Shown here: piece after piece, positions 5,739 through 54,855 of the stretch
How the letters are laid out: every line of letters starts with the position of its first letter
Numbering within the stretch: position 1 is the stretch's first letter
NCBI RefSeq assembly: GCF_003324485.1
Contig: NZ_QODK01000001.1
Location: forward strand, 186,001-250,000
DNA: 64,000 nucleotides
From: Cohaesibacter intestini
Lineage (GTDB): Bacteria; Pseudomonadota; Alphaproteobacteria; Rhizobiales; Cohaesibacteraceae
Direction: 5' to 3'
The notes under the pieces: generated by a model
Told to the model about the DNA's origin: nothing
The model's input: only the letters and a program-made list of their open reading frames with translations
Databases searched by the model: none
Made by a program: the position numbers and the translations under genes

Positions 5739-6446
5739 TCATATCTGAGAAATAGCACCGACCGCCAGAACCGGACCTGTTGCCTGACCAGTTGGGGATC
5801 CGCCTGCCGGTTCATCACTGATTGCCAGCACACCACCGGGCATTTTGGCGCGCAAGGCAGCGGGCACCTGTAGCGAGGCATGCGCCTCTCTTGGCAGCAC
5901 GCCAAGGGAAATGGGGGCGTTGTCCCCTTCGATCAGCCACAGCTCAAAATCCCGCTCAGCAGCCGCTTCCCCCTTTGTCCGGTTGAGCCGCAATTGCCCG
6001 GAACTGGCTTCATAGAGCGCAACCAGCTGGACCAGATTCGTCTCACCCGAAAGGTTGGCGACATAGGTTCCCTCCGGCGCATCCGTGGGACGCAATGTGG
6101 CAAATAACAAGGAGGCCATCACAGCAATGGCAACCAGTGAGGCAAAGGCCAGACCTCGCCAGAAACCGATGCTTGACCACAGCCCCTTGGGCGTGGCGGG
6201 TGTTGAGGACGCACCGAACAGGCGTTGCTCGATCAGACCATACATGGCCGGTGGAGGCGGGGTCGCTTCGATCTCGTTGGTCAGCGGTTCGAAATGGCCT
6301 TCCCAGACATCGACCTCTGCACGCAGATCCGGCTCCTGCTCCAGACGTGCGGAAAAGCGCTGACGCTCCGCATGGGGCAATACGCCAAGGGCATATTCCG
6401 CCGCGAGCAGCCGGTCATCGCGATCCATTTTCTTGTCCACCGTCAT
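5739..6446 (-). CDS. Anti-sigma factor, RskA type
   Basis: A 235-residue membrane protein. Residues 1-75 form a cytoplasmic sigma-binding part (LLAAEYALGVLPHAERQRF is typical), one transmembrane helix lies at about 88-112, and the rest is a periplasmic RskA-like domain ending near residue 235. It lacks the zinc-binding HxxxCxxC of ChrR/RsrA-type anti-sigmas. The start overlaps the sigma-factor stop (ATGA at 6443-6446). Such proteins hold the ECF sigma factor at the membrane until regulated proteolysis. The inducing signal is unknown; mycobacterial RskA responds to redox state. Confidence 0.88.
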   Translation of the reverse strand: MTVDKKMDRDDRLLAAEYALGVLPHAERQRFSARLEQEPDLRAEVDVWEGHFEPLTNEIEATPPPPAMYGLIEQRLFGASSTPATPKGLWSSIGFWRGLAFASLVAIAVMASLLFATLRPTDAPEGTYVANLSGETNLVQLVALYEASSGQLRLNRTKGEAAAERDFELWLIEGDNAPISLGVLPREAHASLQVPAALRAKMPGGVLAISDEPAGGSPTGQATGPVLAVGAISQI

Positions 6447-6979
6447 GCTTCAAGACACTTTCGCAAAGAGATGAGGCTGCGCCGCAGCCACGTCCGCATT
6501 GTATTCAGGGGCACACTGAATTGTTCTGCCAACTCCTGATAGCTGTATCCTTCCAGATAGGCCCCCCGCACCGCATCGGCGCGCCGGGTCTCAAGCTCTT
6601 CAAGGCAGGCAGTGATGCGTGCACCCGTTTCGGCACTGATCACCAATCGCTCCGGATCGGGGCTGTCATCTGCTCCGGCCAGTTCCTCATCAAGCTCGAC
6701 CGTCTCCGGGCGCCGTGCCCTGAGCCGGTCAATGGCATTGTTGCGCGCAATCGCAGCGAGCCAGGAAATCGGACTGTTGCCGGTCACAGTAAAGCGCGAG
6801 GCGTTGTTCCAGACCTTCACATAAGCTTCCTGCAACGCCTCTTCCGCCTCAGCCCTGTCTTTCAAGACACGCAGACAGATGCCAAAGAGTTTCGCACTGG
6901 TTGCCTCATAAAGCGCAGCAAAGGCAGACCGATCACGCAGGGCAACGCGAAAAATCAGTTCGGAGATCGGATCGGCCAT
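6443..6979 (-). CDS. ECF RNA polymerase sigma factor (SigK-like)
   Basis: 178 residues from the ATG at 6979, which has AAGGA upstream and matches usual ECF length; an earlier in-frame start adds 28 atypical residues. Sigma region 2 is at about 15-85 (ALRDRSAFAALYEATS, then EAEEALQEAYVKVW) and region 4 at about 120-175 (GYSYQELAEQFSVPLNTMRTW helix-turn-helix). It would direct RNA polymerase to the fasciclin promoter and perhaps its own. It is coupled to the anti-sigma gene. The 255 bases upstream (6980-7234) contain a CCCCG/CGGGG hairpin near 7172-7189 but no gene. Confidence 0.9.
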   Translation of the reverse strand: MADPISELIFRVALRDRSAFAALYEATSAKLFGICLRVLKDRAEAEEALQEAYVKVWNNASRFTVTGNSPISWLAAIARNNAIDRLRARRPETVELDEELAGADDSPDPERLVISAETGARITACLEELETRRADAVRGAYLEGYSYQELAEQFSVPLNTMRTWLRRSLISLRKCLEA

Positions 6980-7234
6980 GTCTATCCTTGGAACAGATTG
7001 TCTCTTTGTGGAAGGCACCAAGTCTTGGCATCCACACGTCAGATGCCACGCGCGGTCCCTCATAGCATTGCGGTCAGCCCGGTTTGAGCCTCTTCTCTTC
7101 GCCCTCGACTATGCAGGAACAATATGGAGGCGTCCAGCCGAATAAAGAGAGAGAGATCGCCATCGCTAATACCCCGGTAGAGAACGGGGCTTTGCGATAT
7201 CGTTGATGTGAAAGTTTGAATGCTGCCGGATTGA

Positions 7235-8266
7235 TCAGGTGCTGGATCGCACGATCAGCTCATAGCCGATGTCGATCTTTGCCTCATCAGCCGACAGGCT
7301 GGCGCCATTCATACATTCGACCAGCATGGTTGCCGCCTTGTGACCCATTTCATAACGCGGGGTGCGGATGGTGGTCAAAGGTGGATTGATGCAGCGCGAG
7401 GGTTCGAGATCGTTGAAACCGGCAATGGCGATCTGGTCAGGTACCGCAATCTGACGGCGCTGGCATTCAAAAATAGCCCCCATCGCCAAGTCATCATTGA
7501 TACAGAAAACCGCATCAAGGTCCGCTTGCTTGGAGAGCAGATCATGGAACAGGTCACCACCGATCTTGACTGAGGATGGTGCGTGAGAGATGGAGCGCCC
7601 CTCGATATTGTCCAGTCCGGCATCCTTCAGCGCCTGAAAGTGGCCCTGCATCCTTTTCTGGGTGCGAGGATCCATCTGGGCACCAATGAAGCCGATATGG
7701 CGGCGACCACGATCGATCAAATGGCGGGTGATGTCATAGCCCGCCTGATAATGTGACAAGCCGACATTCATGTCGATGGCCTGACCATCATAGTCCATGA
7801 TCTGGACGATGGGGACGCCAGCGGCCTCCAGTGTCTTGCGGCAGGTGTCTGTCTGATCAACCCCCGACAAGATCAGGCCATCGGGATTGTGTTCGAGAAA
7901 CTTGGAGACTAGCTTTTCCTCCTCAATCGGGGAATAGCGGGTGTTGCCAATCAGAACCTGATAGTTGGTGGCGGAAAAGACGTCATCAATCGCCCGCATG
8001 ACATCGGCGAAAACGATGTTGGTGATCGAAGGAATGATTGCGCAAACAGTGTAGCTTCTCGCCGAGGCCAACCGGCTGGCCGAGAGGTTCGGGATATATC
8101 CGAGTTTCGCCACGGCCTCCCTCACCCGCTCACGTGCCTTCTGCGAAACCTTGTCAGGTTGTCGAATGGCTCGGGATACAGTGATGGGACTGACGCCTGC
8201 ATGTTTGGCGACATCCTGCAATGTGGCTCTTCTCGTTGAACGCCTTGAACTTTCGTCAGCCATCAT
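7235..8266 (-). CDS. LacI-family repressor of the gluconate operon
   Basis: 343 residues from the ATG at 8266; the frame extends upstream to a TTG at 8335, but that would add 23 residues before a normal LacI N-terminus. The HTH is ATLQDVAKHAGVSPITVSRA, followed by a periplasmic-binding-like effector domain (CINDDLAMGAIFECQRR, AGFNDLE). It is divergent from gntK, and two identical palindromes centred on GCGC lie in the shared promoter region, as expected for its own operators. The effector is probably gluconate or 6-phosphogluconate, inferred from neighbours. Functionally it is a GntR (LacI type), but the symbol is left open. Confidence 0.88.
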   Translation of the reverse strand: MMADESSRRSTRRATLQDVAKHAGVSPITVSRAIRQPDKVSQKARERVREAVAKLGYIPNLSASRLASARSYTVCAIIPSITNIVFADVMRAIDDVFSATNYQVLIGNTRYSPIEEEKLVSKFLEHNPDGLILSGVDQTDTCRKTLEAAGVPIVQIMDYDGQAIDMNVGLSHYQAGYDITRHLIDRGRRHIGFIGAQMDPRTQKRMQGHFQALKDAGLDNIEGRSISHAPSSVKIGGDLFHDLLSKQADLDAVFCINDDLAMGAIFECQRRQIAVPDQIAIAGFNDLEPSRCINPPLTTIRTPRYEMGHKAATMLVECMNGASLSADEAKIDIGYELIVRSST

Positions 8267-8423
8267 GGTCTCTTGATCTGGTTCCAGCCCTGCGGCATCT
8301 TCGCTCGCTTCAGCGATAGAGAATTGAATCTGCAAGGCTTCTCACCCAATCTAACAGTAGCTCGGGGCTTAGGCAATATGCCTTCCATCCACAGGGAGAA
8401 AAGGGGCATGATAGATTGTCGTC

Positions 8424-8445
8424 AAAATGATAGCGCTATCATTTT
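8424..8445. promoter_or_regulatory. LacI-type operator 1 (gluconate regulator)
   Basis: A perfect 22-bp palindrome with core ATGATAGCGCTATCAT, AAAA to the left and TTTT to the right. It lies on the regulator side of the divergent promoter region. The even-length GC-centred form is typical of LacI-family operators, and the same core is repeated 72 bp away. Confidence 0.85.
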
Positions 8446-8493
8446 TCTTGGTGTATAGTTTCCGGTAGCCGAGGAAGCTCGGTTATTATGATC

Positions 8494-8519
8494 CCAAAAT
8501 GATAGCGCTATCATTTTGG
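8494..8519. promoter_or_regulatory. LacI-type operator 2 (gluconate regulator)
   Basis: The same core ATGATAGCGCTATCAT inside a perfect 26-bp palindrome (outer CCAAAA/TTTTGG), 37 bases upstream of the gntK ATG. The centre-to-centre distance to operator 1 is 72 bp, near seven helical turns, so looping by a tetramer or paired dimers is possible. Confidence 0.85.
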
Positions 8520-8556
8520 TGACGGGAGAGGAACGACTGCATTGCGCGGAGAAGGC

Positions 8557-9072
8557 ATGATCATCGTCGTTATGGGAGTGAGCGGGTCTGGCAAGACCAC
8601 GGTAGGAAGTGCGTTGGCCGATAAACTGGGCTGCGCCTTTCGGGATGCGGACGCCTTGCACCCGGCTGAGAATGTTCTCGCCATGGCCGAGGGAAAACCC
8701 TTGACCGACGCCATGCGAGAACCATGGCTGACGGTTCTGGAAAGCTTGCTGTTTGACCATCAAAGCCGAGGCGAGGCGCTGGTACTGGCCTGTTCCGCTT
8801 TGAAGCGGGCTTATCGGGATCGGCTGTTTGAGCGGATATCCGGCGGCCTGTTTGTTTATATCGCAGGGACCCGCGATCAGATCCTGCCACGTCTTATGCA
8901 ACGGCAGGGGCATTTTTTCCCATCCAGCCTGCTTGATAGCCAGTTCAGGGATCTGCAGGAACCCGCAGAAGATGAACCGGTCCTGACCGTGCCTGTGACT
9001 TTGTCTGTGGAACAGGCCGTTGCGGAAATCCTGCCTCATCTATCACATGACGCTCAGACACGGGAGGAATGA
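8557..9072 (+). CDS. gntK: Gluconokinase
   Basis: 171 residues, the usual GntK size, phosphorylating gluconate to 6-phosphogluconate with ATP. The P-loop GVSGSGKTT is at residues 7-15; the gluconate-binding segment FRDADALHPAENV follows near 29, and ACSALKRAYRD near 82. The ATG at 8557 has GGAGAAGG immediately upstream; an in-frame TTG at 8542 precedes this site. It is the first gene of a plus-strand operon with a TRAP transporter and gnd, and lies just after two operators of the divergent LacI regulator. Confidence 0.94.
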   Translation: MIIVVMGVSGSGKTTVGSALADKLGCAFRDADALHPAENVLAMAEGKPLTDAMREPWLTVLESLLFDHQSRGEALVLACSALKRAYRDRLFERISGGLFVYIAGTRDQILPRLMQRQGHFFPSSLLDSQFRDLQEPAEDEPVLTVPVTLSVEQAVAEILPHLSHDAQTREE

Positions 9073-9095
9073 GCTCCATAAAATCAGGTCAAGAC

Positions 9096-9110
9096 ATGGA
9101 CCGGGTCCAT
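9096..9110. promoter_or_regulatory. Perfect dyad between gntK and the TRAP genes
   Basis: ATGGACC-G-GGTCCAT is a perfect 7-1-7 inverted repeat in the 102-base gap between gntK and dctP; a second short palindrome GATCCGGATC follows at 9122-9131. It may be an RNA hairpin that sets the expression ratio of kinase and binding protein, or a second regulator site. Confidence 0.35.
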
Positions 9111-9174
9111 TGCATGATCCGATCCGGATCACACTGAATTCTATCTCAATCGAGAAACCTGGGAGGTTACTGAT

Positions 9175-10191
9175 ATGAAATTCTCTACTCTTGCACTGGC
9201 AGCCGCCTTTGCTGCCACTCTGGCTGCCCCTGTGGCGGCGGCCGACAGCTACAAGCTGAAATTCCAGTCGAGCGATAATTCGGGCAACCCGAACTATGTC
9301 ATCCAGCAGGAATGGGCCTCTCGCGTTGGCGTCATGACCAATGGCCGTGTTGAAATCGAAATGCTGCCGGTCGGTTCAATCGTCAAGCACACTGAAACCC
9401 TGACCGCAATCAAGGCGGGTGTGCTCAGTGGCCATGTGACCGCAACCGGCTATTTCTCCGGTAAAGACCCTGCCTTTGGCCTTCTTGGCAACACGGTTGG
9501 TGCGTGGAGCGATCCGAACGAAATGCTGCTCTTCATCGAGCATGGTGGCGGTCGCGAACTGTATGAAGAGCTGCTGGCTCCTTATGGTGTTCAGTTCATC
9601 GGTGCCTCTGCAACCGGTCTTGAAGCCTTTGTTTCCAAAGTGCCGCTTGATGGCGTTGACGATCTCAAGGGCCTGAAACTGCGTGCGCCTGAAGGTCTGG
9701 TCCAGTCGGTCTTTGCTGCAGCAGGTGCCGCTCCGGTGAACCTGCCCGGCTCCGAAGTCTACACCTCGCTTGACAAGGGTGTGATTGACGCCGCCGACTA
9801 TACCGTCTTCTCGACCAACCACCAGCAAGGCATGCATAAAGTGGCCAAGCATCCGGTCTATCCGGGCTTCCACTCCCTGCCGACCATCGAAGTCTCGATG
9901 AACAAGAAGACATGGGACTCCATGCCAGCAGATCTGCAGGAAATCCTGCGCGTTTCCGTGCGTGACTTTGCCCGTCAGATCACCTCGAAGCTGAAAATGC
10001 AAGATCTGGCAGCTGTGGCAGAAGCCCGCGCGTCTGGCGATATCACCATTCATGACTGGTCTGCGGAAGAGCGGGCAAAATTCCGCAAAATCGCGCAGGA
10101 GCAATGGAAAATCTTTGCACAGAAGTCTCCAAACGCTCAAAAAGTCTATGAAGTGATTTCCAAATATCTCAAGGAAACCGGCCTGATCTAA
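9175..10191 (+). CDS. TRAP transporter substrate-binding protein (DctP type), probably gluconate
   Basis: A 338-residue periplasmic binding protein with a Sec signal (residues 1-23, ending APVAAA). The DctP fold is supported by GRVEIEMLPVGSIVKHTE near 53 and by the family signature DLKGLKLRAPEGL near 163, where the arginine normally contacts the substrate carboxylate. GGGAGG precedes the ATG. It sits between gntK and the DctQ/DctM genes in a gluconate operon, so an aldonate such as gluconate is the likely ligand; this is inference. Other enteric-type gluconate systems use GntP permeases instead. Confidence 0.9.
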   Translation: MKFSTLALAAAFAATLAAPVAAADSYKLKFQSSDNSGNPNYVIQQEWASRVGVMTNGRVEIEMLPVGSIVKHTETLTAIKAGVLSGHVTATGYFSGKDPAFGLLGNTVGAWSDPNEMLLFIEHGGGRELYEELLAPYGVQFIGASATGLEAFVSKVPLDGVDDLKGLKLRAPEGLVQSVFAAAGAAPVNLPGSEVYTSLDKGVIDAADYTVFSTNHQQGMHKVAKHPVYPGFHSLPTIEVSMNKKTWDSMPADLQEILRVSVRDFARQITSKLKMQDLAAVAEARASGDITIHDWSAEERAKFRKIAQEQWKIFAQKSPNAQKVYEVISKYLKETGLI

Positions 10192-10260
10192 CAGGCGAGC
10201 GAGAGATTGCTGGCCGGACCTTGCGGGTTCGGCCAGTGAATTTGCGGCGGAGGAAGGCAA

Positions 10261-10833
10261 ATGGAACCAGAAAAAACATCATCAGACAATCAGCGGGACC
10301 CAGCATCCCCTGCCCCGGTTCAATCGCCGGTTCTGACCCTGCTGGATCGGGCCATCATTCGAGTCGGCCATACGCTCAGTTTGCTGTTTTTCGTCTCCTG
10401 CCTGATCATCATATTCGAGATTGTCGCGCGGTATGTGTTCAATTCGCCGACCTTCTGGGTGCATGAGACAACCACACTCCTGTGTGCCTTGCTGTTTGCC
10501 TATGGCGGTGTCCATTGCATGGCCAACAACAAGCATATCCGCATCGGACTGATCTATGACACCGTGTCCGCCAAGGTGCGGCGCTATCTCGACATCCTGA
10601 TTTCAACCCTGCTGCTGATCTATGCGCTCATTCTGGCCTATGCAGCGGGGCTGGTCGCCTATGAGGCCCTTTACACCCCTTGGGGCGCGTTCCGCATGGA
10701 GACCAGCGGCAGTGCGTGGGATCCGCCCTTCCCGGCAATTATCAAGAGTTTTCTCTTTCTGGTGCTGGCCCTGATGGTCGTCCAGACCGCCCTGCACCTG
10801 GTTCATCATATCCGGAGGAAAGTTGATGCCTGA
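10261..10833 (+). CDS. TRAP transporter small membrane subunit (DctQ type)
   Basis: 190 residues with four hydrophobic helices (about 42-62, 75-95, 115-138, 160-180) and a Pro-rich cytoplasmic N-terminus. HETTTLLCALLFAYGGVHCMA is a typical DctQ region. It forms the membrane complex with DctM, energised by a sodium gradient. GGAGGAAG precedes the ATG, and the 3' end overlaps the dctM start. Substrate specificity lies with the binding protein upstream. Confidence 0.88.
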   Translation: MEPEKTSSDNQRDPASPAPVQSPVLTLLDRAIIRVGHTLSLLFFVSCLIIIFEIVARYVFNSPTFWVHETTTLLCALLFAYGGVHCMANNKHIRIGLIYDTVSAKVRRYLDILISTLLLIYALILAYAAGLVAYEALYTPWGAFRMETSGSAWDPPFPAIIKSFLFLVLALMVVQTALHLVHHIRRKVDA

Positions 10834-46660: not shown

Positions 46661-48118
46661 TTACTCCTCCTCGCCATGAAAAATGGCGTGTGAGCGCTTG
46701 AGCAAGCCATCGGTCTCGGCTGCCAGATGTTGATAGACCTCCTGATTGATCCTCTGGTAGAGCGCCACATTGCTTGGCACCGGTTCAAAGGTATCTTTGC
46801 GGCGGACCATCTTGTCTATGGCTTCCTGTCGGTCGGCATAGATGCCCAGCGCCAAAGCGGTGCAGATGGCCGCGCCCATGCTGGCCGATCCATTGACCTC
46901 GTTGCGAAAGGCGGGGACACCAAACACATCGGCAAAGATCTGCATGAAGAGATCGCCGTTCGAGCCGCCACCACTGACAATAATCCGGGTGGGGGCAACG
47001 CCGCGTTCGTCGCACATGGCCTGAACATTGTTCTTCATGGTCAGCGCAATGCCTTCGAGCACCGAGCGGAACATATGCGGGCCTTTGTGATTGCCGTTAA
47101 AGCCGATCATCACGCCGCGCTCATGCAAGTGACTGGGCCGGGCAAGCCAATGCAACAGGGTGTAAAGGCCATCGCAGCCGGGGGAGACCTCTTCGGCTGC
47201 CCGCTTGTTGAGATAGGCTTCCGGGCTCAGCCCTTGCGCTTCGGCCTCAGAGACAATGTCGCCGCCGAGCAGATCCTTGATCCAGGTAACCGTCGACATG
47301 CCCCGGCGGATGCCGGCGCTTTCATAGAGAAATTCGCCGGGCACCGCGCCGGGATTGGCAAAGAAACTGGCCGCATCCTGACGGTTTTCATCGCCCACCA
47401 TCATCGAGGTGATGTAGGTGCCGAGCGAAATCAACACGGTGCCATCATTGACGAGGCCTGCGCCCAAGCCTTCAACGGCCTTGTCATTGGCGGTGGCAAC
47501 GACCGGCAGACCTTGCGGCAGCCCCAAGACGTCTGAAGCAAAGCCATTGACATGGCCAAGGATGGTGGCCGGGTCAACGAGATCAAACAGCATGTCGCGC
47601 GGGGTGGTGTAGCTGTCGAATGTCTCCTGATCTTCGAACCAGTCAAGGGTGATCGGATCAATTGGCCATGGCCCGACATAATTGCTGCGCGTGTCTCTGG
47701 TCTCTCCGGTCAGACGATGGGTGAGATAGCCGGTGGTGGTGGTCACATATTTCACCGTGTCGTCTTCGTGCTGATAGGGGCGAGAGAGACGCAAATCCAT
47801 CCAGCTCTGCACCGGCGAGGCCAGCGACCCATCGGCGCGGATCAGAGTGCGGCAGCAGCGGATCGAACCAAGACCGACGCCTGCAATGGCCCCCTTGTCG
47901 CCATCGAACTTGGCGAACAGGGCCTGACAGGCCTCGATCAGGCTGTCCCAAAGATCGTCATCGGGATGCTCGGCACGCTCGTTGCCATAAAGATGGATCG
48001 GCTGCAGCTTGACCGTGTGGGAGCAGAGTTCATGGCCGGTCAGATCGAAGATCGCCACTTTGGTGCTTTGCGTGCCACCATCAATGGACAGGATGTATTG
48101 TTTGTCTTTTTGCATCAT
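46661..48118 (-). CDS. FGGY-family carbohydrate kinase
   Basis: 485 residues from the ATG at 48118 (GGAG upstream). N-terminal ILSIDGGTQSTKVAIFD binds the phosphates of ATP; ATANDKAVEGLGAG near 210 and IIVSGGGSNGDLFMQIFADV near 400 are the FGGY signature regions. Members phosphorylate sugars or polyols such as xylulose, ribulose, erythritol or glycerol; specificity is not readable. It is the last gene of the operon of FAD oxidase, MFS, etfB, etfA, SDR and kinase, so the pathway probably ends in a phosphorylated ketose. Confidence 0.9.
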   Translation of the reverse strand: MMQKDKQYILSIDGGTQSTKVAIFDLTGHELCSHTVKLQPIHLYGNERAEHPDDDLWDSLIEACQALFAKFDGDKGAIAGVGLGSIRCCRTLIRADGSLASPVQSWMDLRLSRPYQHEDDTVKYVTTTTGYLTHRLTGETRDTRSNYVGPWPIDPITLDWFEDQETFDSYTTPRDMLFDLVDPATILGHVNGFASDVLGLPQGLPVVATANDKAVEGLGAGLVNDGTVLISLGTYITSMMVGDENRQDAASFFANPGAVPGEFLYESAGIRRGMSTVTWIKDLLGGDIVSEAEAQGLSPEAYLNKRAAEEVSPGCDGLYTLLHWLARPSHLHERGVMIGFNGNHKGPHMFRSVLEGIALTMKNNVQAMCDERGVAPTRIIVSGGGSNGDLFMQIFADVFGVPAFRNEVNGSASMGAAICTALALGIYADRQEAIDKMVRRKDTFEPVPSNVALYQRINQEVYQHLAAETDGLLKRSHAIFHGEEE

Positions 48119-48280
48119 TGTGTCTCCACCCAAAGAGAAAGGACAGACCTCGCCCGCGTCTGGGCGCTATTCGGGGATGGACGAGGTCTGTCAGCGGGCC
48201 ACCCTGCTTGCAGCCACCATGCAGTCGCCTGCCAGCAGGGGGCGATCCGACCGGACAAGAGCCCTTCCGGTCGGACATCA

Positions 48281-49060
48281 TCATCGCATCAAATAGCCAC
48301 CATCGACGGTCAGCACCGTGCCATTGACATAGTTCGAGGCCGGACTGGCCAGAAAGACAGTCGCACCCATCAAGTCAGTGGTCCAGCCCCAACGGTTGGC
48401 CGGAATATGGGAGAGAATTTCTGCATTGCGCTTTTCATCCTTGCGGGTCATTTCAGTCAGCGGCGTTGCATAATAGCCCGGAGCGATGGCATTGACCTGA
48501 ATGTTGAACTGGGCCAGTTCATCGCACATGGCCTTGGTCAGGCCGACAATGCCATGCTTGGTCGAGGCATAAGCCGGAGACCATTGCCCGCCCAAAAAGG
48601 AAAAGAGCGAGGCGATGTTGATGATCTTGCCGCTTTTTTGCGCGATCATGTGGATGCAGGCTTCGTGGATCATTTCAAAGGCGGCGGTCAGGTTGACCGA
48701 GACCATCTTGTCCCACTGGGTGCGGCAAAATTTGGTGACGTCTTTTTCGTTGATCGAAATGCCCGCGCAATTGATCAGAATATCGACGCTGCCCCATTGC
48801 TCCATGCAGGCGTCGACGACACGCTTGCATTCGCCTTCCTTGGTGATGTCGGCTTCGATGAAGCGATATTCCACTCCGCATGCCTCGACGAGAGAACGGG
48901 TGGTGCCATCATCTTCCATCAGGCTGGGCACCATGATGTTGGCGCCCGCCTTGGCCAAGGCGGTCGAGAAGGCCTGTCCGAGACCACCATTGCCGCCGGT
49001 GACAATGGCATTCTTGCCCTTGCAAGAGAAGAAATCCATATTGAAGTCAGACGGTTCCAT
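48281..49060 (-). CDS. Short-chain dehydrogenase/reductase
   Basis: 259 residues from the ATG at 49060 (GGAGGAG upstream, inside the end of etfA). TGGNGGLGQAF is near residue 16, NCAG near 95, and the catalytic YASTKHG near 162. It resembles gluconate 5-dehydrogenase/KduD-like SDRs, oxidising or reducing a hydroxyl of a sugar acid or polyol with NAD(P). It overlaps etfA by 14 bases and is followed by the FGGY kinase. Confidence 0.9.
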   Translation of the reverse strand: MEPSDFNMDFFSCKGKNAIVTGGNGGLGQAFSTALAKAGANIMVPSLMEDDGTTRSLVEACGVEYRFIEADITKEGECKRVVDACMEQWGSVDILINCAGISINEKDVTKFCRTQWDKMVSVNLTAAFEMIHEACIHMIAQKSGKIINIASLFSFLGGQWSPAYASTKHGIVGLTKAMCDELAQFNIQVNAIAPGYYATPLTEMTRKDEKRNAEILSHIPANRWGWTTDLMGATVFLASPASNYVNGTVLTVDGGYLMR

Positions 49061-50000
49061 TGCTTTGCTCCTCCTTGATCTTATTGAGCAACTTGTCGAC
49101 GAATGTGAGTGCATCGCCTTTGACGACGATGTCGGAAAGGCTGCAAATTGGTGCATCCACATTGGTATTCACTGAGATGATATGCTCGGCATCCGCAAGC
49201 CCCAGCACATGCTGGATGGCACCGTTGATGCCAAGCGCCAAATAGAGACGAGGGCTTACCCTTTTGCCCGACTGGCCGACCTGTTGGCTGCGATCAGCAA
49301 AGCCCGCATCAACCATTGCACGGCTGGCAGAAACCGCACCGCCCAACGCAACGGCCAGCGGCTGAAGGGCAGCAAAATCACGCGCAACGCCGCGGCCACC
49401 GGAAATCAGGATATCACTGTCAAGGATGTCGGGCCGATCGATCTCTTGCCGGGCAATCCGTCGAATATCGCTGGCAGCAAGGTTCGGAAGCTGGGGGCGA
49501 AGGATTGCGGTTGGGCGCTCCGCTTGGTCAATGGGCACAAACCGGCGCGGCTGGATGGTCAGGACCAACGGGCGTGCTGGATCGGCTTCAAAGCGGCCAA
49601 TCGCTTGACCATCATGGGTTGGGCGCTCGATGATTGCCTTGCCCTGCTCGTTGCCAATGGCCGAGACAGAGGTGACGATTGCAGCCTCGATCCTGACCGC
49701 GAGACGCGGGGCGCAGTCACGACCCAACAGATCATCTGCCATCAGAATGGCGTCATAGGCGTGGGTCTGGTGCAAAGCCGCCATCACCCCGCACATTTGT
49801 CGTGCATCCGATCCATCGATGTGGTGATCACGCAGGTCGAGGATCGCATCGACTTTGCCCTTGAGGGCATCGCAGGTGCCGTGGATCAGCAGGACATGCA
49901 GCTGACGGCCTGCATCGGGGAACAGCGCATCGGCTGCAGCGAGCAGCTCCTGTTGTTCCCGATCCCGTTCCGGGTCCATATGGATGAGTATCCGGCGCAT
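49047..50000 (-). CDS. etfA: Electron transfer flavoprotein alpha subunit
   Basis: 317 residues. The C-terminal FAD domain is clear: LISGGRGVARDFAAL near 200, VDAGFADRSQQVGQSGKRVSP near 235, LALGINGAIQHVLGL, and ISVNTNVDAPICSLSDIVV. The N-terminal domain pairs with EtfB. ETFs carry electrons from flavin dehydrogenases to the quinone pool via ETF-QO, or bifurcate them. Being co-transcribed with an FAD-linked oxidase, it probably takes electrons from that enzyme. It lies one base after etfB. Confidence 0.92.
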   Translation of the reverse strand: MRRILIHMDPERDREQQELLAAADALFPDAGRQLHVLLIHGTCDALKGKVDAILDLRDHHIDGSDARQMCGVMAALHQTHAYDAILMADDLLGRDCAPRLAVRIEAAIVTSVSAIGNEQGKAIIERPTHDGQAIGRFEADPARPLVLTIQPRRFVPIDQAERPTAILRPQLPNLAASDIRRIARQEIDRPDILDSDILISGGRGVARDFAALQPLAVALGGAVSASRAMVDAGFADRSQQVGQSGKRVSPRLYLALGINGAIQHVLGLADAEHIISVNTNVDAPICSLSDIVVKGDALTFVDKLLNKIKEEQSNGTV

Positions 50001-50001
50001 G

Positions 50002-50814
50002 TCAGATCAGTCTCTCTTCGCACAGATAGTGATAGACCTGCGCGATACCTTCATCATTCAGGTCAACCTTGCGTGGGTTTTTGCGTCGTTTTTGCCGTTT
50101 CATGAGACCTGTCAAACGGATGACAGCGTCGCATGGCTGTGTGTTTGCCTCTTCAGGCCCTTCAATCATGTCGCCCGGACAGCGCAATCTGTGCGAGACA
50201 TCCTTGGCCCGATCCTTGATGCGCAGATAGGGCATGGCATAGTCACTGCGTGCGTCAAAGCCAAGAATGGCAGGCCCACGCACCGCGTAACGTGTCACAA
50301 AGCGCCCTTCCCGCCGCTCCAACTCGCCGTGATGCTTGGTGAAACGGGTGTCATCAATCCGGCAGATGCCGGAGAGATGGTCGATCCCGAGGACGCCCGC
50401 CAGAGCCGGGGCCAAAGGGGCCGCCGCGTGGCCATGGGTATCACTTCCGGTGAGGATCCAGTCATAGTCGGCAGCGGGAAGAGTGCTACCGACCATCTTT
50501 GCCAGAGTGACCGTGTCGCTTGTTGCCATTATCATCTCTGGCAGCAGGGTCGCCCTGTCCACCCCCAGCCGCAGGATATCCTCGATCTGGAGTATCGCAG
50601 CAGGAGTGGCCAGAGCCAACAGGTGAAGAGACAGATCCGGTATCTGTTGGCGCAGAGACAAAGCGAAGCCTAGGGCTGCCGCATCGTCTGGACACAGCCT
50701 TCTGCGGCAGCCATCCCGGATGGTGATCTCACCCGGGATGGTGGAGTGGCTGTTTCCAAAAGGATCCATCCAGTCACCATCCGGGACAAAGCGGGCGACA
50801 CAGACAAGCTTCAT
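50002..50814 (-). CDS. etfB: Electron transfer flavoprotein beta subunit
   Basis: 270 residues with the EtfB fold: KLVCVARFVPD at the N-terminus, CPDDAAALGFALSLRQQ near 40, LTGSDTHGHAAAPLAPALAG near 122. The start shares bases with the stop of the MFS gene (TGATG). It has a basic C-terminal extension (KRQKRRKNPRKVDL) that may shield or position the cofactor. I cannot tell from sequence alone whether it binds AMP (electron carrier type) or a second FAD (bifurcating type). Confidence 0.9.
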   Translation of the reverse strand: MKLVCVARFVPDGDWMDPFGNSHSTIPGEITIRDGCRRRLCPDDAAALGFALSLRQQIPDLSLHLLALATPAAILQIEDILRLGVDRATLLPEMIMATSDTVTLAKMVGSTLPAADYDWILTGSDTHGHAAAPLAPALAGVLGIDHLSGICRIDDTRFTKHHGELERREGRFVTRYAVRGPAILGFDARSDYAMPYLRIKDRAKDVSHRLRCPGDMIEGPEEANTQPCDAVIRLTGLMKRQKRRKNPRKVDLNDEGIAQVYHYLCEERLI

Positions 50815-52133
50815 CAGCCTTGCACCACCACGCCGCTCGGAGCCTTTGCCGCAGCGGTGGCGAGCTTCGCGTCGACCTTGTTCAGGCGTTCATAGATGAT
50901 GGCCAGAAGGATGCCGATGACCCCAAGCGCCGCCGAGACGAGGAAGTAGGCCGTGTAGCCGCCCTGATCGCCATAGGTGGTCCAGAGATAGGAGTTGAGC
51001 TGCGGCAGGATGATATCCGGCAAATAGCCGATCAGCGAGATAAGGCCGATGGCGGTGCCCATCATCACGGCTTCGATCTGTGACTGGCCGAGCAGTGACC
51101 AATAGGTGCCACGCACCGCATAGAGGAAGGCCCCCAGCAGGATGATCAGAGCCGAGAAGAGCGTGGCCGACAAGCTTGTGGGCATCATGACAAGGATCAC
51201 AAGCAGAGACACGGCACCCGTGATGGCCACAGCGTTGGTATAGGCCCGGCCAATACGGTCCGCCATGAAGCCCCCAATGAAGCCGCCGATCGGGCGCATC
51301 CAGAGGACGATGGCCGTCACGGTTGCCACACTGACCGCATCCATGCCGACATTGGTCTGCAGGAAGCCACCCAGATAATAGACAGTCCAGAAGACTGTAT
51401 AGCCCATGAAGATGATGGCGCCCATCAGATAGACATACTTGTTGGTCAGCAGCTTGCCGCAATCAGCAAGGCGGAACTTGTCATCGTCGCTATGTTGACC
51501 GGAGGCAACGGCATGCTCTTTGAGCTGTTCGTCGCTCTCGACAAAGAAGGCAATCAGAACGGCAGCTGCCAGCACAATGACGGAGAAGATATTGATGACA
51601 GCGACCAGCGCCTCGCGCTTGTCGGCAATCTCGATGCTGTTGCCAAGGATCCAGGCAAAAGCAGCCAGACCGATGGTGCCCATCAAGGCTTCGACCACGC
51701 CGCGGCCACCATCAAGCACCCCAAAGAAACGGCCAACCTCTTCCGGTTTGGCCAGCATCTTGACCAGTTTCATATGGGAAGACCAGAAGGTGAAGACCGA
51801 AAAGAAGCCCCAGAGGAAGAAGACAATCTTGACCGAGCCTTCCGATGGCACTGTGCCGAACCAGAAGCCACACAGGGCAACCCCGGCCAGCGACGTGGAA
51901 ATCAGCCATTTGGCAGAGAATTTGTCTGCCAGATAGCCCGAGGGCAGATAGCCGATGATATAGGCGGTGCCAAGCACGGAATAGAAGTCATTGAGGCTGG
52001 TCAGCGGCAGATTAAAGACTTCGAGGATCGTTTCCTGATAGTTGGTGCGCAGATAGATCACCGGATAGATGGCACCGGCGGCTAGCAAAACCAGAAAGAA
52101 CTGGAAGTAACGCCGTAGATTTTCCTTGGGCAT
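50814..52133 (-). CDS. MFS transporter
   Basis: 439 residues from the ATG at 52133 (GGGAGGAC upstream), with twelve hydrophobic helices and a central cytoplasmic loop near 205-235 (HAVASGQHSDDDKF). The N-terminal half has YLPSGYLADKFSAKW and the C-terminal half GGFMADRIGRA, the MFS A-motif regions. Within the FAD-oxidase/ETF/kinase operon it is the likely importer of the substrate, which is unknown. Confidence 0.9.
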   Translation of the reverse strand: MPKENLRRYFQFFLVLLAAGAIYPVIYLRTNYQETILEVFNLPLTSLNDFYSVLGTAYIIGYLPSGYLADKFSAKWLISTSLAGVALCGFWFGTVPSEGSVKIVFFLWGFFSVFTFWSSHMKLVKMLAKPEEVGRFFGVLDGGRGVVEALMGTIGLAAFAWILGNSIEIADKREALVAVINIFSVIVLAAAVLIAFFVESDEQLKEHAVASGQHSDDDKFRLADCGKLLTNKYVYLMGAIIFMGYTVFWTVYYLGGFLQTNVGMDAVSVATVTAIVLWMRPIGGFIGGFMADRIGRAYTNAVAITGAVSLLVILVMMPTSLSATLFSALIILLGAFLYAVRGTYWSLLGQSQIEAVMMGTAIGLISLIGYLPDIILPQLNSYLWTTYGDQGGYTAYFLVSAALGVIGILLAIIYERLNKVDAKLATAAAKAPSGVVVQG

Positions 52134-52347
52134 GAATGTCCTCCCGACATAGAGACAATGAACACAAGCGACGCGAAGCAATGCCTCCCATTCTTCTCGT
52201 CGCTGTTGGTTTGATCAATGTTGGCTTGGTCGGGGGATCCTGCCCTTGGCAAGGTGATGGCCTTGTCGGTGTCAGGGAAGCGTCGCCCCCGATCCGGTTG
52301 GGCAGGCGTGCGGGATATCGCCCCGAACGCCCACCCTTTGATGTGAC

Positions 52348-53832
52348 TTAGTTTTCGTCCTGATAGATGTATTTGTTGACTTCATCCTGCGGGAAAATGG
52401 TCCCGTGGTTCATGATGCCGTTTGGATCAAAGGCCTGTTTGAGCTTTTCGAGCATGTAATAGGCCGAGCCATGTTCATCTCTGGTCCACTCGGAGCGATA
52501 CTTGCCGATGCCGTGATGGTGGCACATGGAGCCGCCATGCTTGATGGTCTCTTCCACGATGATCTTCTGGATCGGATGGTGATAGGCAAGCAACTCATCT
52601 TCCGGCGCACAATGGATGTCATAATTGTAGACGAAATACATGTTGGTGCCGTTGATGTAGGAGTGGGAGGAATGCCCGCCCAACATGGTGAGATCTGCGG
52701 CCCGTTCGAATTCGTCGCGGATGCGAGCGATGACCCGGTCGTAGATGATGGGAATAGTTTCCCAATCCGCCGAGATCTCGGTGGTGTAACCGGCATGACT
52801 GTCGCTTTTGCGCATCTCTTCAAACTCGTCGTCAATATCCTGCTGCGACCAGTTGAGACGATTGAACCAGTTGGCAATCAACGCGCTGTCCACCTGCTTG
52901 ATGATACCATCCTTGAAGGTCTCGACGGCGGCTTCGATGCCTGTGCCGGTTGCCTCGACAATGCCTTTGGGGCCTTCTGCCATGAAGAGCAGGACGCATT
53001 TGTTATCGTGGAAGTGATAGAAATGCTGGGCGGCATCCTCCTCGGAATAGACGCGGGCGACGGAGGGCCGGAAGCCGTTGACCATCACTTCACGCAGGAT
53101 CTTGATACCGGTCTCCACATCCTTGACCAGATAACCGTAGAATTTGTTGTTGTCCGGATAATATTTGAAAATCTTGATGGTGACTTCGGTGATGTAGCAG
53201 AGCGCGCCTTCATTGCCGATGACGATATGACGAATGTCCGGGCCACCAGCGCGCCGGGAGACATTCTTGATGCGCGAAATGGTGCCATCAGGAAAAACCG
53301 CTTCCAGACCGACCACCATATCCTCGATGCCGCCATAAAGGGTCGAGAACTGACCGATCGAGCGGGTGGCGACCAGACCGCCATATTTGGCCACTGGTTT
53401 GGATTGGGGCGAATGACCGGTGGTGAAGCCAATCTTGCGCAGCTCGTCTTCCAGCTGCTGCAGAGGCACACCGGCCTGCACGGTGGCCTGGCTGTTATAA
53501 GGGTCAAGCTTGATGATCTTGTCGAGCTTCAACGTGTCGACCACGAGGGTGACGTCTTTCCAGTTTTCCAGCCCGCCTTCGGTTGCGGTCATGCCGGCGC
53601 GTGGAATGACATTGATATTGTTGGCGTTGCAGAATGACAGGATTTTTGCGACTTCCTCGGTATCGCCCGGATAGACGATGGCAATGGGGGCCGGAACGTC
53701 GAGAACCTTGCGCGCCTTGGCGTATTTCTTGTAGCGGTCCGCAGACGCGTCATACAAGGCATCCGGATCGGTGTTGATCTGTTCGGCGGGTATGATGGTT
53801 GCAAGTTGGTCCAGAAGCGTGGCGGCGTCCAA
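52348..53832 (-). CDS. FAD-binding oxidase (GlcD / alkylglycerone-phosphate synthase-like)
   Basis: 494 residues. The FAD_binding_4 domain (about 50-230) includes VIPRAGMTATEGG and GGLVATRSIGQFSTLYGG; the C-terminal domain ends with MCHHHGIGKYRSEW and AFDPNGIMNHGTIFP, close to the SHHHG pattern of AGPS and related 2-hydroxyacid dehydrogenases. It is the first gene of the minus-strand operon, with the RpiR regulator divergent. I infer that it oxidises a hydroxy acid or polyol and passes electrons to the ETF encoded downstream. The substrate is unknown; true AGPS activity is unlikely in this setting. Confidence 0.88.
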   Translation of the reverse strand: MDAATLLDQLATIIPAEQINTDPDALYDASADRYKKYAKARKVLDVPAPIAIVYPGDTEEVAKILSFCNANNINVIPRAGMTATEGGLENWKDVTLVVDTLKLDKIIKLDPYNSQATVQAGVPLQQLEDELRKIGFTTGHSPQSKPVAKYGGLVATRSIGQFSTLYGGIEDMVVGLEAVFPDGTISRIKNVSRRAGGPDIRHIVIGNEGALCYITEVTIKIFKYYPDNNKFYGYLVKDVETGIKILREVMVNGFRPSVARVYSEEDAAQHFYHFHDNKCVLLFMAEGPKGIVEATGTGIEAAVETFKDGIIKQVDSALIANWFNRLNWSQQDIDDEFEEMRKSDSHAGYTTEISADWETIPIIYDRVIARIRDEFERAADLTMLGGHSSHSYINGTNMYFVYNYDIHCAPEDELLAYHHPIQKIIVEETIKHGGSMCHHHGIGKYRSEWTRDEHGSAYYMLEKLKQAFDPNGIMNHGTIFPQDEVNKYIYQDEN

Positions 53833-53987
53833 TGTAATTCTCCTGTTAGAACCATCCGTGCGGGAAATTTGCAGCGCGGATGGAGGTCAGTTCCTGCTCG
53901 CTCAAGGTCTGGCCTGTGGAGAAGCGGCCATGTCACTCAAGCAAACTGAAAAGTTTCCTTTGCTCTGGCTGGAGGGTAGGACTCAAT

Positions 53988-53999
53988 GGAAAATTATTC
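53988..53999. promoter_or_regulatory. Possible partial RpiR site (GGAAAATTATTC)
   Basis: The left half GGAAAATT matches the two perfect palindromes at 54050 and 54073; the right half has diverged. A further similar element, TGAAAAGTTTCC, is at 53947-53958, closer to the oxidase gene. Confidence 0.4.
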
Positions 54000-54049
54000 A
54001 AAATATATTGGGATATTTTCTATTATTATGCACTATTTGGCGCTTTTAT

Positions 54050-54061
54050 GGAAAATTTTCC
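54050..54061. promoter_or_regulatory. Palindromic operator 1 of the RpiR-controlled region
   Basis: GGAAAATTTTCC, a perfect 12-bp palindrome in the AT-rich spacer between the divergent FAD-oxidase operon and the RpiR gene. The same sequence recurs with its centre 23 bp away. Short AT-rich palindromes of this kind are usual RpiR targets. Confidence 0.75.
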
Positions 54062-54072
54062 GAAACAATCAC

Positions 54073-54084
54073 GGAAAATTTTCC
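54073..54084. promoter_or_regulatory. Palindromic operator 2 of the RpiR-controlled region
   Basis: An identical GGAAAATTTTCC, 57 bases upstream of the RpiR ATG. The 23-bp centre spacing puts both sites on nearly the same helical face, allowing cooperative binding of dimers. Confidence 0.75.
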
Positions 54085-54141
54085 ATTTTGCCTGTCCTTT
54101 CTCGTCGAGACTTGCTACGATAGCCGGACAATACAGACAGG

Positions 54142-54855
54142 ATGGCGCGTATGATCAATATCGACTTTGGCATTCTCAATCCTCTCGAGAAGAAAATCCA
54201 TGCGGCTCTGACCGATCAGAGCAAGTATGTCGATACGATCCGCATCACCGACGCCGCCGCTTTGTGCAATTGTTCGGTGTCAAAAATCTCGAAATTCACC
54301 AAGAAGCTCGGCTTCACGAACTATAAGCAGTATCTGGATTTTCTCTATGGCCGCACCCAATTGCGCGCCGATCATTCCTCCGAACTTGATCGGCTGGAAA
54401 GCTTCATTCAGACCTTTGACAGCCAGAAGGTGCGCGACGTTGCCAAGCTGATTGCCGAGAAGGACAAACTGGTGTTGCTAGGCTATGGCCCGTCCTATGT
54501 CTGCGCCCAATATTTTGAATATCGCCTCAAGACCTGCAGCAACAAGGCAACCATTGCGGTGCCGGACGAATGGTCGGCCCGCACGATGATCGATGACAAC
54601 AGCCTGCTTCTGATCCTGACTGTCACCGGCAGCTTCAAGAGCTTTGCCGATATCTACAAGGACAGCGAAGAAAAGGGAGGCAGCGTTGCGCTGATCGTCG
54701 AGGAGTATACTCCCAACCTGATCCGGCAATATGACAAGATCTTCTGCCTAACGCGGGAGGTCCAGTCGCGCGGCCTCAAACCCTATGAGAAGAACCGCAC
54801 CCTGTTTTTCATTTTCATGGAAGAAGTGATCCGGAAATTGACCCGGATGCCTTGA
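54142..54855 (+). CDS. MurR/RpiR-family regulator
   Basis: 237 residues: an HTH_6 domain (about 1-75, with CNCSVSKISKFTKKLGFTNY as the recognition region) and a SIS domain (about 90-225, KLVLLGYGPSYVCAQYFEYRL) that binds phosphosugars. It is divergent from the FAD oxidase-MFS-ETF-SDR-kinase operon and probably controls it in response to the phosphorylated product of the FGGY kinase. An alternative start is the ATG at 54151. Confidence 0.9.
   Translation: MARMINIDFGILNPLEKKIHAALTDQSKYVDTIRITDAAALCNCSVSKISKFTKKLGFTNYKQYLDFLYGRTQLRADHSSELDRLESFIQTFDSQKVRDVAKLIAEKDKLVLLGYGPSYVCAQYFEYRLKTCSNKATIAVPDEWSARTMIDDNSLLLILTVTGSFKSFADIYKDSEEKGGSVALIVEEYTPNLIRQYDKIFCLTREVQSRGLKPYEKNRTLFFIFMEEVIRKLTRMP

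Follow-up and report, generated by a model that had tools for sequence, protein, structure and literature searches.

A ygc-type operon of Cohaesibacter intestini as a candidate pathway for breaking the ether of betaine-lipid head groups

What compound is broken down by an operon that joins an FAD enzyme, an electron transfer flavoprotein (ETF), a short-chain dehydrogenase (SDR) and an FGGY kinase? The question is raised by a stretch of 64,000 nucleotides of the Cohaesibacter intestini genome (contig NZ_QODK01000001.1, positions 186,001 to 250,000; hereafter the window), in which such genes lie between positions 46661 and 54855. The original prediction for this locus was an uncharacterised pathway for a sugar or polyol. 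The reading that we prefer, and to which we give somewhat less than an even chance, is that the operon serves a ygc-type catabolism of a zwitterionic quaternary-ammonium compound with a glycerol ether. The likeliest candidate is glyceryl-N,N,N-trimethylhomoserine, which deacylation of the common membrane lipid diacylglyceryl-trimethylhomoserine (DGTS) leaves as its head group. More tentatively still, ygc-type operons in general may constitute the missing ether-breaking pathway for betaine-lipid head groups: kinase, SDR and an etherase of the type of AGPS, the alkyl-dihydroxyacetone phosphate (DHAP) synthase, would run ether-lipid biosynthesis in reverse, ETF would re-oxidize the flavin and, in some Bacillales, a new lyase would release trimethylamine. 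The genes and segments concerned are the following.

46661..48133, reverse strand: FGGY kinase, homologue of YgcE (50% identity); Pfam FGGY_N and FGGY_C
48281..49060, reverse strand: SDR, KduD-like homologue of YgcW (64%), 259 amino acids from the likely start at 49060; Pfam adh_short_C2
49047..50000, reverse strand: EtfA-like subunit (24% to YgcQ), FAD-binding motif retained; Pfam ETF and ETF_alpha
50002..50814, reverse strand: EtfB-like subunit with a degenerate nucleotide loop, as seen by alignment; Pfam ETF
50814..52181, reverse strand: MFS transporter, YqcE-like (26%); Pfam MFS_1
52348..53832, reverse strand: AGPS-like FAD enzyme, homologue of YgcU (57%), 494 amino acids, first gene of the operon; Pfam FAD_binding_4 and FAD-oxidase_C
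54142..54855, forward strand: divergent RpiR-type regulator with a SIS domain; Pfam SIS above and HTH_6 below cut-off
49119..52335, no strand: mfs-etfB-etfA segment without counterpart at the same site of locus L104, by blastn of the window against L104

All seven reading frames are present where the original prediction had them and each is backed by Pfam domains, with the HTH_6 match of the regulator under its cut-off. The start check gives a likely SDR start at 49060, preceded by AGGAGGAG, in a frame that opens at 49162, and a likely MFS start at 52133, with GGGAGGA ahead of it. The prediction of one operon with a linked ETF and without characterised function also held: in the parts of the literature searched, no substrate is assigned to this cluster or to its E. 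coli homologue, nor is one given for it in those parts dealing with AGPS chemistry and the breakdown of betaine-lipid head groups, and the terms sought were absent from the main text of the FGGY family paper (PMC3245297).

By sequence, the operon is homologous to the ygc/yqc cluster of E. coli K-12, to which the identities listed above refer (blastp; E 3e-13 for YgcQ), the homologues of YgcU, YgcW and YgcE standing here together in one operon. The window EtfB against YgcR falls below blastp detection at 1e-3, though its Pfam ETF domain is present, and by tblastn, again at 1e-3, none of YgcN, YgcO, YgcP and YgcS was matched in the window. According to the consulted sections of one study, ygcU is 1.69-fold up with D-serine and its deletion did not restore the trait under study (PMC13012123). 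The distribution of YgcU is patchy: it occurs in 4/295 genomes of the order that includes a genome with a 93% YgcU (G222) and in 3/398 genomes of a phylum sample to which the window genome belongs, while within Cohaesibacter the FAD gene is sporadic (six of 18 genomes, the window genome included). Matches in genomes of the genus run at 83-92%.

Do these genes belong together? A gene-neighbourhood survey had been suggested along with the original prediction. GTDB genomes were scanned and 298 relatives emerged, the best 80 of which were fetched as loci; their titles name Clostridia, Erysipelotrichaceae, spirochaetes, Desulfotignum, Chloroflexi, Enterococcus, Bacillales and Pseudovibrio. Of these 80, 55 form the full-flank set, with at least 2.5 kb upstream and at least 8 kb downstream. 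The fetched loci are mutually related, and counts taken on them are thus not independent events. In the full-flank set, SDR and kinase are always present (55/55), etfA and etfB in 48, RpiR in 52 (in 47 on the strand opposite the FAD gene) and MFS/YqcE in 41. The four genes etfA, etfB, SDR and kinase accompany the FAD gene in 48 loci, to which MFS/YqcE is added in 39, with RpiR also in 38, and this grouping exceeds chance. A scan placed arbitrarily at L018:18000-19000 found nothing. A SurE-type phosphatase gene lies near the kinase in 10 of the 80 loci (e.g. L048:16949-17803), seven of them full-flank, and seven Enterococcus loci (L059, L062, L063, L067, L070, L071 and L078) have a neighbouring ABC-transporter unit that encodes another YgcW-like protein as well as one resembling YgcP.

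Which chemistry does the FAD enzyme suggest? AGPS is an ether-lipid synthase working in glycerol-ether chemistry, which exchanges an acyl for an alkyl group on DHAP. The window enzyme had been called a GlcD/AGPS-like oxidase, and only the second half of this name stands: among solved relatives ranked by sequence, AGPS comes best with 177.7 bits (119.2 for the next family), and a GlcD-type 2-hydroxyacid oxidase was rejected at 140.6 bits against the 567.9 cut-off of the NCBIfam GlcD equivalog. Residues H140, R260, Y399 and H438-440 are invariant in all 93 aligned sequences. R260 and Y399 align with R352 and Y508 of Dictyostelium AGPS (chain numbering offset of 3), both named as important for catalysis in the portions of PMC3509576 consulted; two of the three listed AGPS catalytic residues are retained, and R447 lies in an unaligned stretch. 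By structure search, the fold is not separable between AGPS and D-lactate dehydrogenases. As for the other two enzymes, the SDR misses both NCBIfam KduD models (320.8 against 369 for NF005390, 273.5 against 338.85 for TIGR01832), and the kinase remains far under the cut-offs of all 12 matching NCBIfam kinase models, xylulokinase, LsrK and GlpK among them.

The clue to the substrate comes from transporters beside the cluster. Unexplained neighbours were clustered and representatives scanned, giving BCCT transporters and ABC transporters of ProV/ProW/OpuAC type, which were counted up to 9 kb from the FAD gene. BCCT genes occur in 15 of the 55 full-flank loci, 14 of them on the strand of the FAD gene and that of L015 on the opposite one; over all loci carrying a BCCT gene, 17/18 follow the FAD-gene strand. 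Chance would give 0.44 per 55, an excess of about 34-fold (this expectation is based on 20 cluster genomes, whose 82.4 Mb hold 37 BCCT matches, with one gene entering the count as two pieces). For each of four genomes (G695, G697, G900 and G901) the sole BCCT match falls in the fetched cluster locus, and in two loci of the window's genus (L102 and L105) a BCCT gene comes immediately after the kinase, its product 67-69% identical to clostridial BCCT. An OpuAC-type binding protein is present in 20/55 loci, and one or the other system in 35/55. The cluster BCCT proteins carry the motifs FYWxNWxxW (21/22) and HW.....AIY-type (18/22), and the binding protein of Enterococcus pallens reaches 313.9 bits with 3PPN, which bears the title of a glycine betaine/carnitine/choline-binding protein, the tyrosines of the aligned motifs being retained; we take these motif residues to form the cage for trimethylammonium. 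Of the 24 binding proteins, the motif expressions matched only a part, and most of the divergent ones owe their assignment solely to BLAST similarity. With BCCT or OpuC-type transporters standing in 35/55 loci, a plain sugar or polyol is an unlikely substrate; with AGPS as nearest kin of the FAD enzyme by sequence, the plain-carbohydrate part of the original prediction is probably wrong.

Some further arrangements were seen around these transporters. At L076:8093-10644 the cluster gives way to genes for an ABC ATPase and for a fusion of permease and OpuAC binding protein. Four loci (L025, L046, L037 and L044) have, among the OpuC-type ABC genes beside the cluster, one for an FAD_binding_2 protein of flavocytochrome-c type, as scanned in L044. 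In L103, also of the window's genus, the sequence behind the kinase (after 15542) starts BCCT-like and then becomes transposase-like, as judged by eye, which suggests an insertion sequence.

How could these elements be assembled? A betaine, a glycerol, an ether and homoserine betaine as leaving group together lead to glyceryl-trimethylhomoserine, and from there we infer substrate, step order, mechanism and role of ETF as follows. The compound would be taken up by the MFS transporter in the window, and by BCCT or OpuC-type ABC systems in other loci. The FGGY kinase would put a phosphate onto the glycerol end, and the SDR would oxidize the middle hydroxyl to a ketone, yielding an alkyl-DHAP-like compound. 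On the latter, the AGPS-like FAD enzyme would form an adduct between flavin N5 and C1, with expulsion of homoserine betaine and release of triose phosphate; release of the adduct by water could leave a reduced flavin in need of re-oxidation, and its electrons would pass through EtfBA to the quinone pool or to NAD, or to another acceptor where ETF is absent. According to a review, the enzyme breaking the ether of the DGTS head group is not known; in the consulted part of another source DGTS is mentioned as a replacement lipid only (PMC10132767).

In some Bacillales, outside the window, the fate of the expelled betaine might be read from adjoining genes. In L069 and L091 the cluster has as neighbours an aspartase-like lyase gene and two dehydrogenase genes, one for an aldehyde dehydrogenase and one for a zinc alcohol dehydrogenase. 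When 193 genomes of that family were searched for the lyase with E limited to 1e-120, six loci emerged, five of which adjoin FAD-SDR-kinase genes; the sixth adjoins a YgcS-like MFS (58%) and OpuC-type ABC genes, and no search was made for the cluster elsewhere in that genome. In L125 (G705), the lyase, both dehydrogenases, BCCT and a binding protein are together, with the cluster on another contig. Both dehydrogenase genes accompany the lyase in 7/7 loci. The lyase positions corresponding to T101, N142 and H188 (1J3U chain numbering) are I, S (A in L117) and C in 7/7, so that, as read from the alignment, the amine pocket is altered relative to aspartase; the loop GSSxxPGKVNP is retained in six of the seven and reads GST in L069. 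All three residues, T, N and H, are present in the fumarase-like protein encoded by the window genome. A further difference, an Arg to Glu change, is seen in the lyases of L069, L091, L114-L117 and L125, which read GPEAG at a place occupied by GPR(A/S)G in the aspartases and in the fumarase-like L118.

Aspartase-type enzymes produce fumarate from a 2-substituted succinate. Here, homoserine betaine would be converted by the alcohol and aldehyde dehydrogenases to trimethylaspartate, which the lyase would split into fumarate and trimethylamine; a comparison of the Bacillales aldehyde dehydrogenase with betaine-aldehyde dehydrogenase was not diagnostic. At this search level the lyase is found in only 3/28 cluster-bearing genomes, so in the remaining ones homoserine betaine would have to be excreted, retained or handled in some other way.

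What, then, is the place of the ETF? The original prediction regarded a dedicated ETF beside a sugar or polyol kinase as unusual, a claim that we do not maintain: the pairing of ETF with a PF01565/PF02913 flavoenzyme has a precedent, the Acetobacterium lactate dehydrogenase-EtfAB complex (PDB 7QH2) being among the matches, and E. coli has most of the gene set. The window EtfA has the FAD-binding domain (PF00766, 94 bits against a cut-off of 27; FAD-binding motif retained in the alignment). The window EtfB shows GHAA where many homologues carry DGDT, and a check of its nucleotide signature found neither the DGDT nor the DGG(S/T) loop; in 67 EtfB relatives, 29 have DGDT, 30 DGG(S/T) and eight other sequences. 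The DGDT-type loop we presume to be the mark of bifurcating-type EtfB. Beside its relatives, those of the same genus included, the window EtfB looks degenerate, and relaxed selection may be a possibility.

Seven of the 55 full-flank loci, each from Bacillales, gave no ETF genes, and the same holds for L101, L104 and L114. L104 (G012, 6366-10400) is the closest relative (FAD enzyme 91-92%) and retains the other genes at the same site, with some 3.2 kb of mfs-etfB-etfA gone and the SDR adjoining the FAD gene. By blastn, window and L104 match from 52336 and 8881 onward, respectively, and on the other side as far as 49118 and 8723, leaving 157 L104 bases unaligned between the two. Since ETF is present in 48/55 loci and absent from some, and the window EtfB has lost its loop, it is a common yet replaceable partner. 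The window genome also has a second EtfBA pair and, elsewhere, encodes an ETF-quinone oxidoreductase domain; this domain, like YgcN and YgcO in E. coli, suggests a route to quinone.

Other substrates have to be weighed against glyceryl-trimethylhomoserine. Some points count against it: 15 of the 20 loci with an OpuAC-type protein are from Enterococcus or Vagococcus, on which this count therefore leans, and in 11/55 loci neither MFS/YqcE nor a betaine transporter was detected. The window itself gave no BCCT or OpuAC-type match to these queries, and the two BCCT of its genome are on another contig. A different quaternary-ammonium or betaine compound, such as carnitine, glycerophosphocholine, a choline-linked sugar or a DGTA-type head group, whose hydroxyls would be oxidized by FAD enzyme and SDR and whose product would be trapped by the kinase, has perhaps one chance in a handful or slightly better: it would agree with the closest PDB match of the binding protein and with the SurE phosphatase of 7/55 loci. 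From their general chemistry, however, carnitine and choline leave unexplained the polyol-type kinase, the AGPS-type flavoenzyme and the set of alcohol dehydrogenase, aldehyde dehydrogenase and lyase, and glycerophosphocholine is without ether.

Rather unlikely, and a little more so than another betaine, is an ordinary sugar, sugar-acid or polyol pathway (import, flavin oxidation to ETF, SDR, phosphorylation) that betaine transporters adjoin for osmotic reasons. The FGGY kinase, the KduD-like SDR, the RpiR/SIS regulator, MFS/YqcE in 41/55 loci and an E. coli cluster without betaine transporter all speak for it, but it has to face the 34-fold excess of BCCT, its strand bias, the four genomes whose only BCCT is at the cluster and the AGPS-type catalytic residues of the FAD enzyme. 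An ETF-coupled D-2-hydroxyacid dehydrogenase like Acetobacterium LctBCD, with SDR and kinase acting on a later hydroxyacid product, we consider improbable, given an AGPS score of 177.7 against 81.1 bits for LctD, the missed GlcD cut-off and the AGPS-like HHHG motif.

Two further ideas were rejected. Corrinoid demethylation of the quaternary amine finds no MttB-family match in any of the 15 cluster-bearing genomes searched. Synthesis and recycling of own DGTS finds no DUF3419/BtaA match in the window genome, and a match in six of the 19 genomes searched; a partial DUF3419 match (G004:C1:438516-439460; 141.8 bits, against about 350 for fuller ones) lies some 23 kb from the G004 FAD gene.

If glyceryl-trimethylhomoserine is the substrate, a function would be given to the orphan E. 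coli K-12 cluster and to its relatives in Firmicutes, spirochaetes, Desulfotignum, Chloroflexi and marine Alphaproteobacteria. Turnover of algal and fungal lipids would be tied to bacterial carbon use, with a possible source of trimethylamine, and enzymes of ether-lipid synthesis would be seen operating in reverse. Even with a wrong exact substrate, the family would shift from 'sugar' to 'betaine-type compound', with a short list of substrates open to testing.

The operon shares features with several known systems. With ygcNOP, ygcQRSUW and yqcE-ygcE of E. coli it has in common homologous FAD enzyme, SDR, kinase, YqcE-type MFS and EtfA-like subunit, whereas the E. coli genes form three units in alternating directions and include YgcN, YgcO, YgcP and YgcS, the window having RpiR in the stead of YgcP. 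In LctBCD, the lactate dehydrogenase-EtfAB complex of Acetobacterium woodii, EtfB and EtfA partner a flavoenzyme from the superfamily to which the FAD enzyme belongs, but LctD is distant from the FAD enzyme and the window EtfB is without the DGDT-type loop. The Bacillales lyases belong to the aspartase/fumarase superfamily by family membership and GSSxxPGKVNP loop, and differ from it by replacement of the T, N and H positions. The nearest sequence kin of the FAD enzyme remain the alkyl-DHAP synthases (AGPS/ADPS), with which it shares the equivalents of R352/R419 and Y508/Y578 and the HHHG motif, and from which it is set apart by its bacterial origin and its place in an operon beside genes for kinase, SDR, transporter and ETF.

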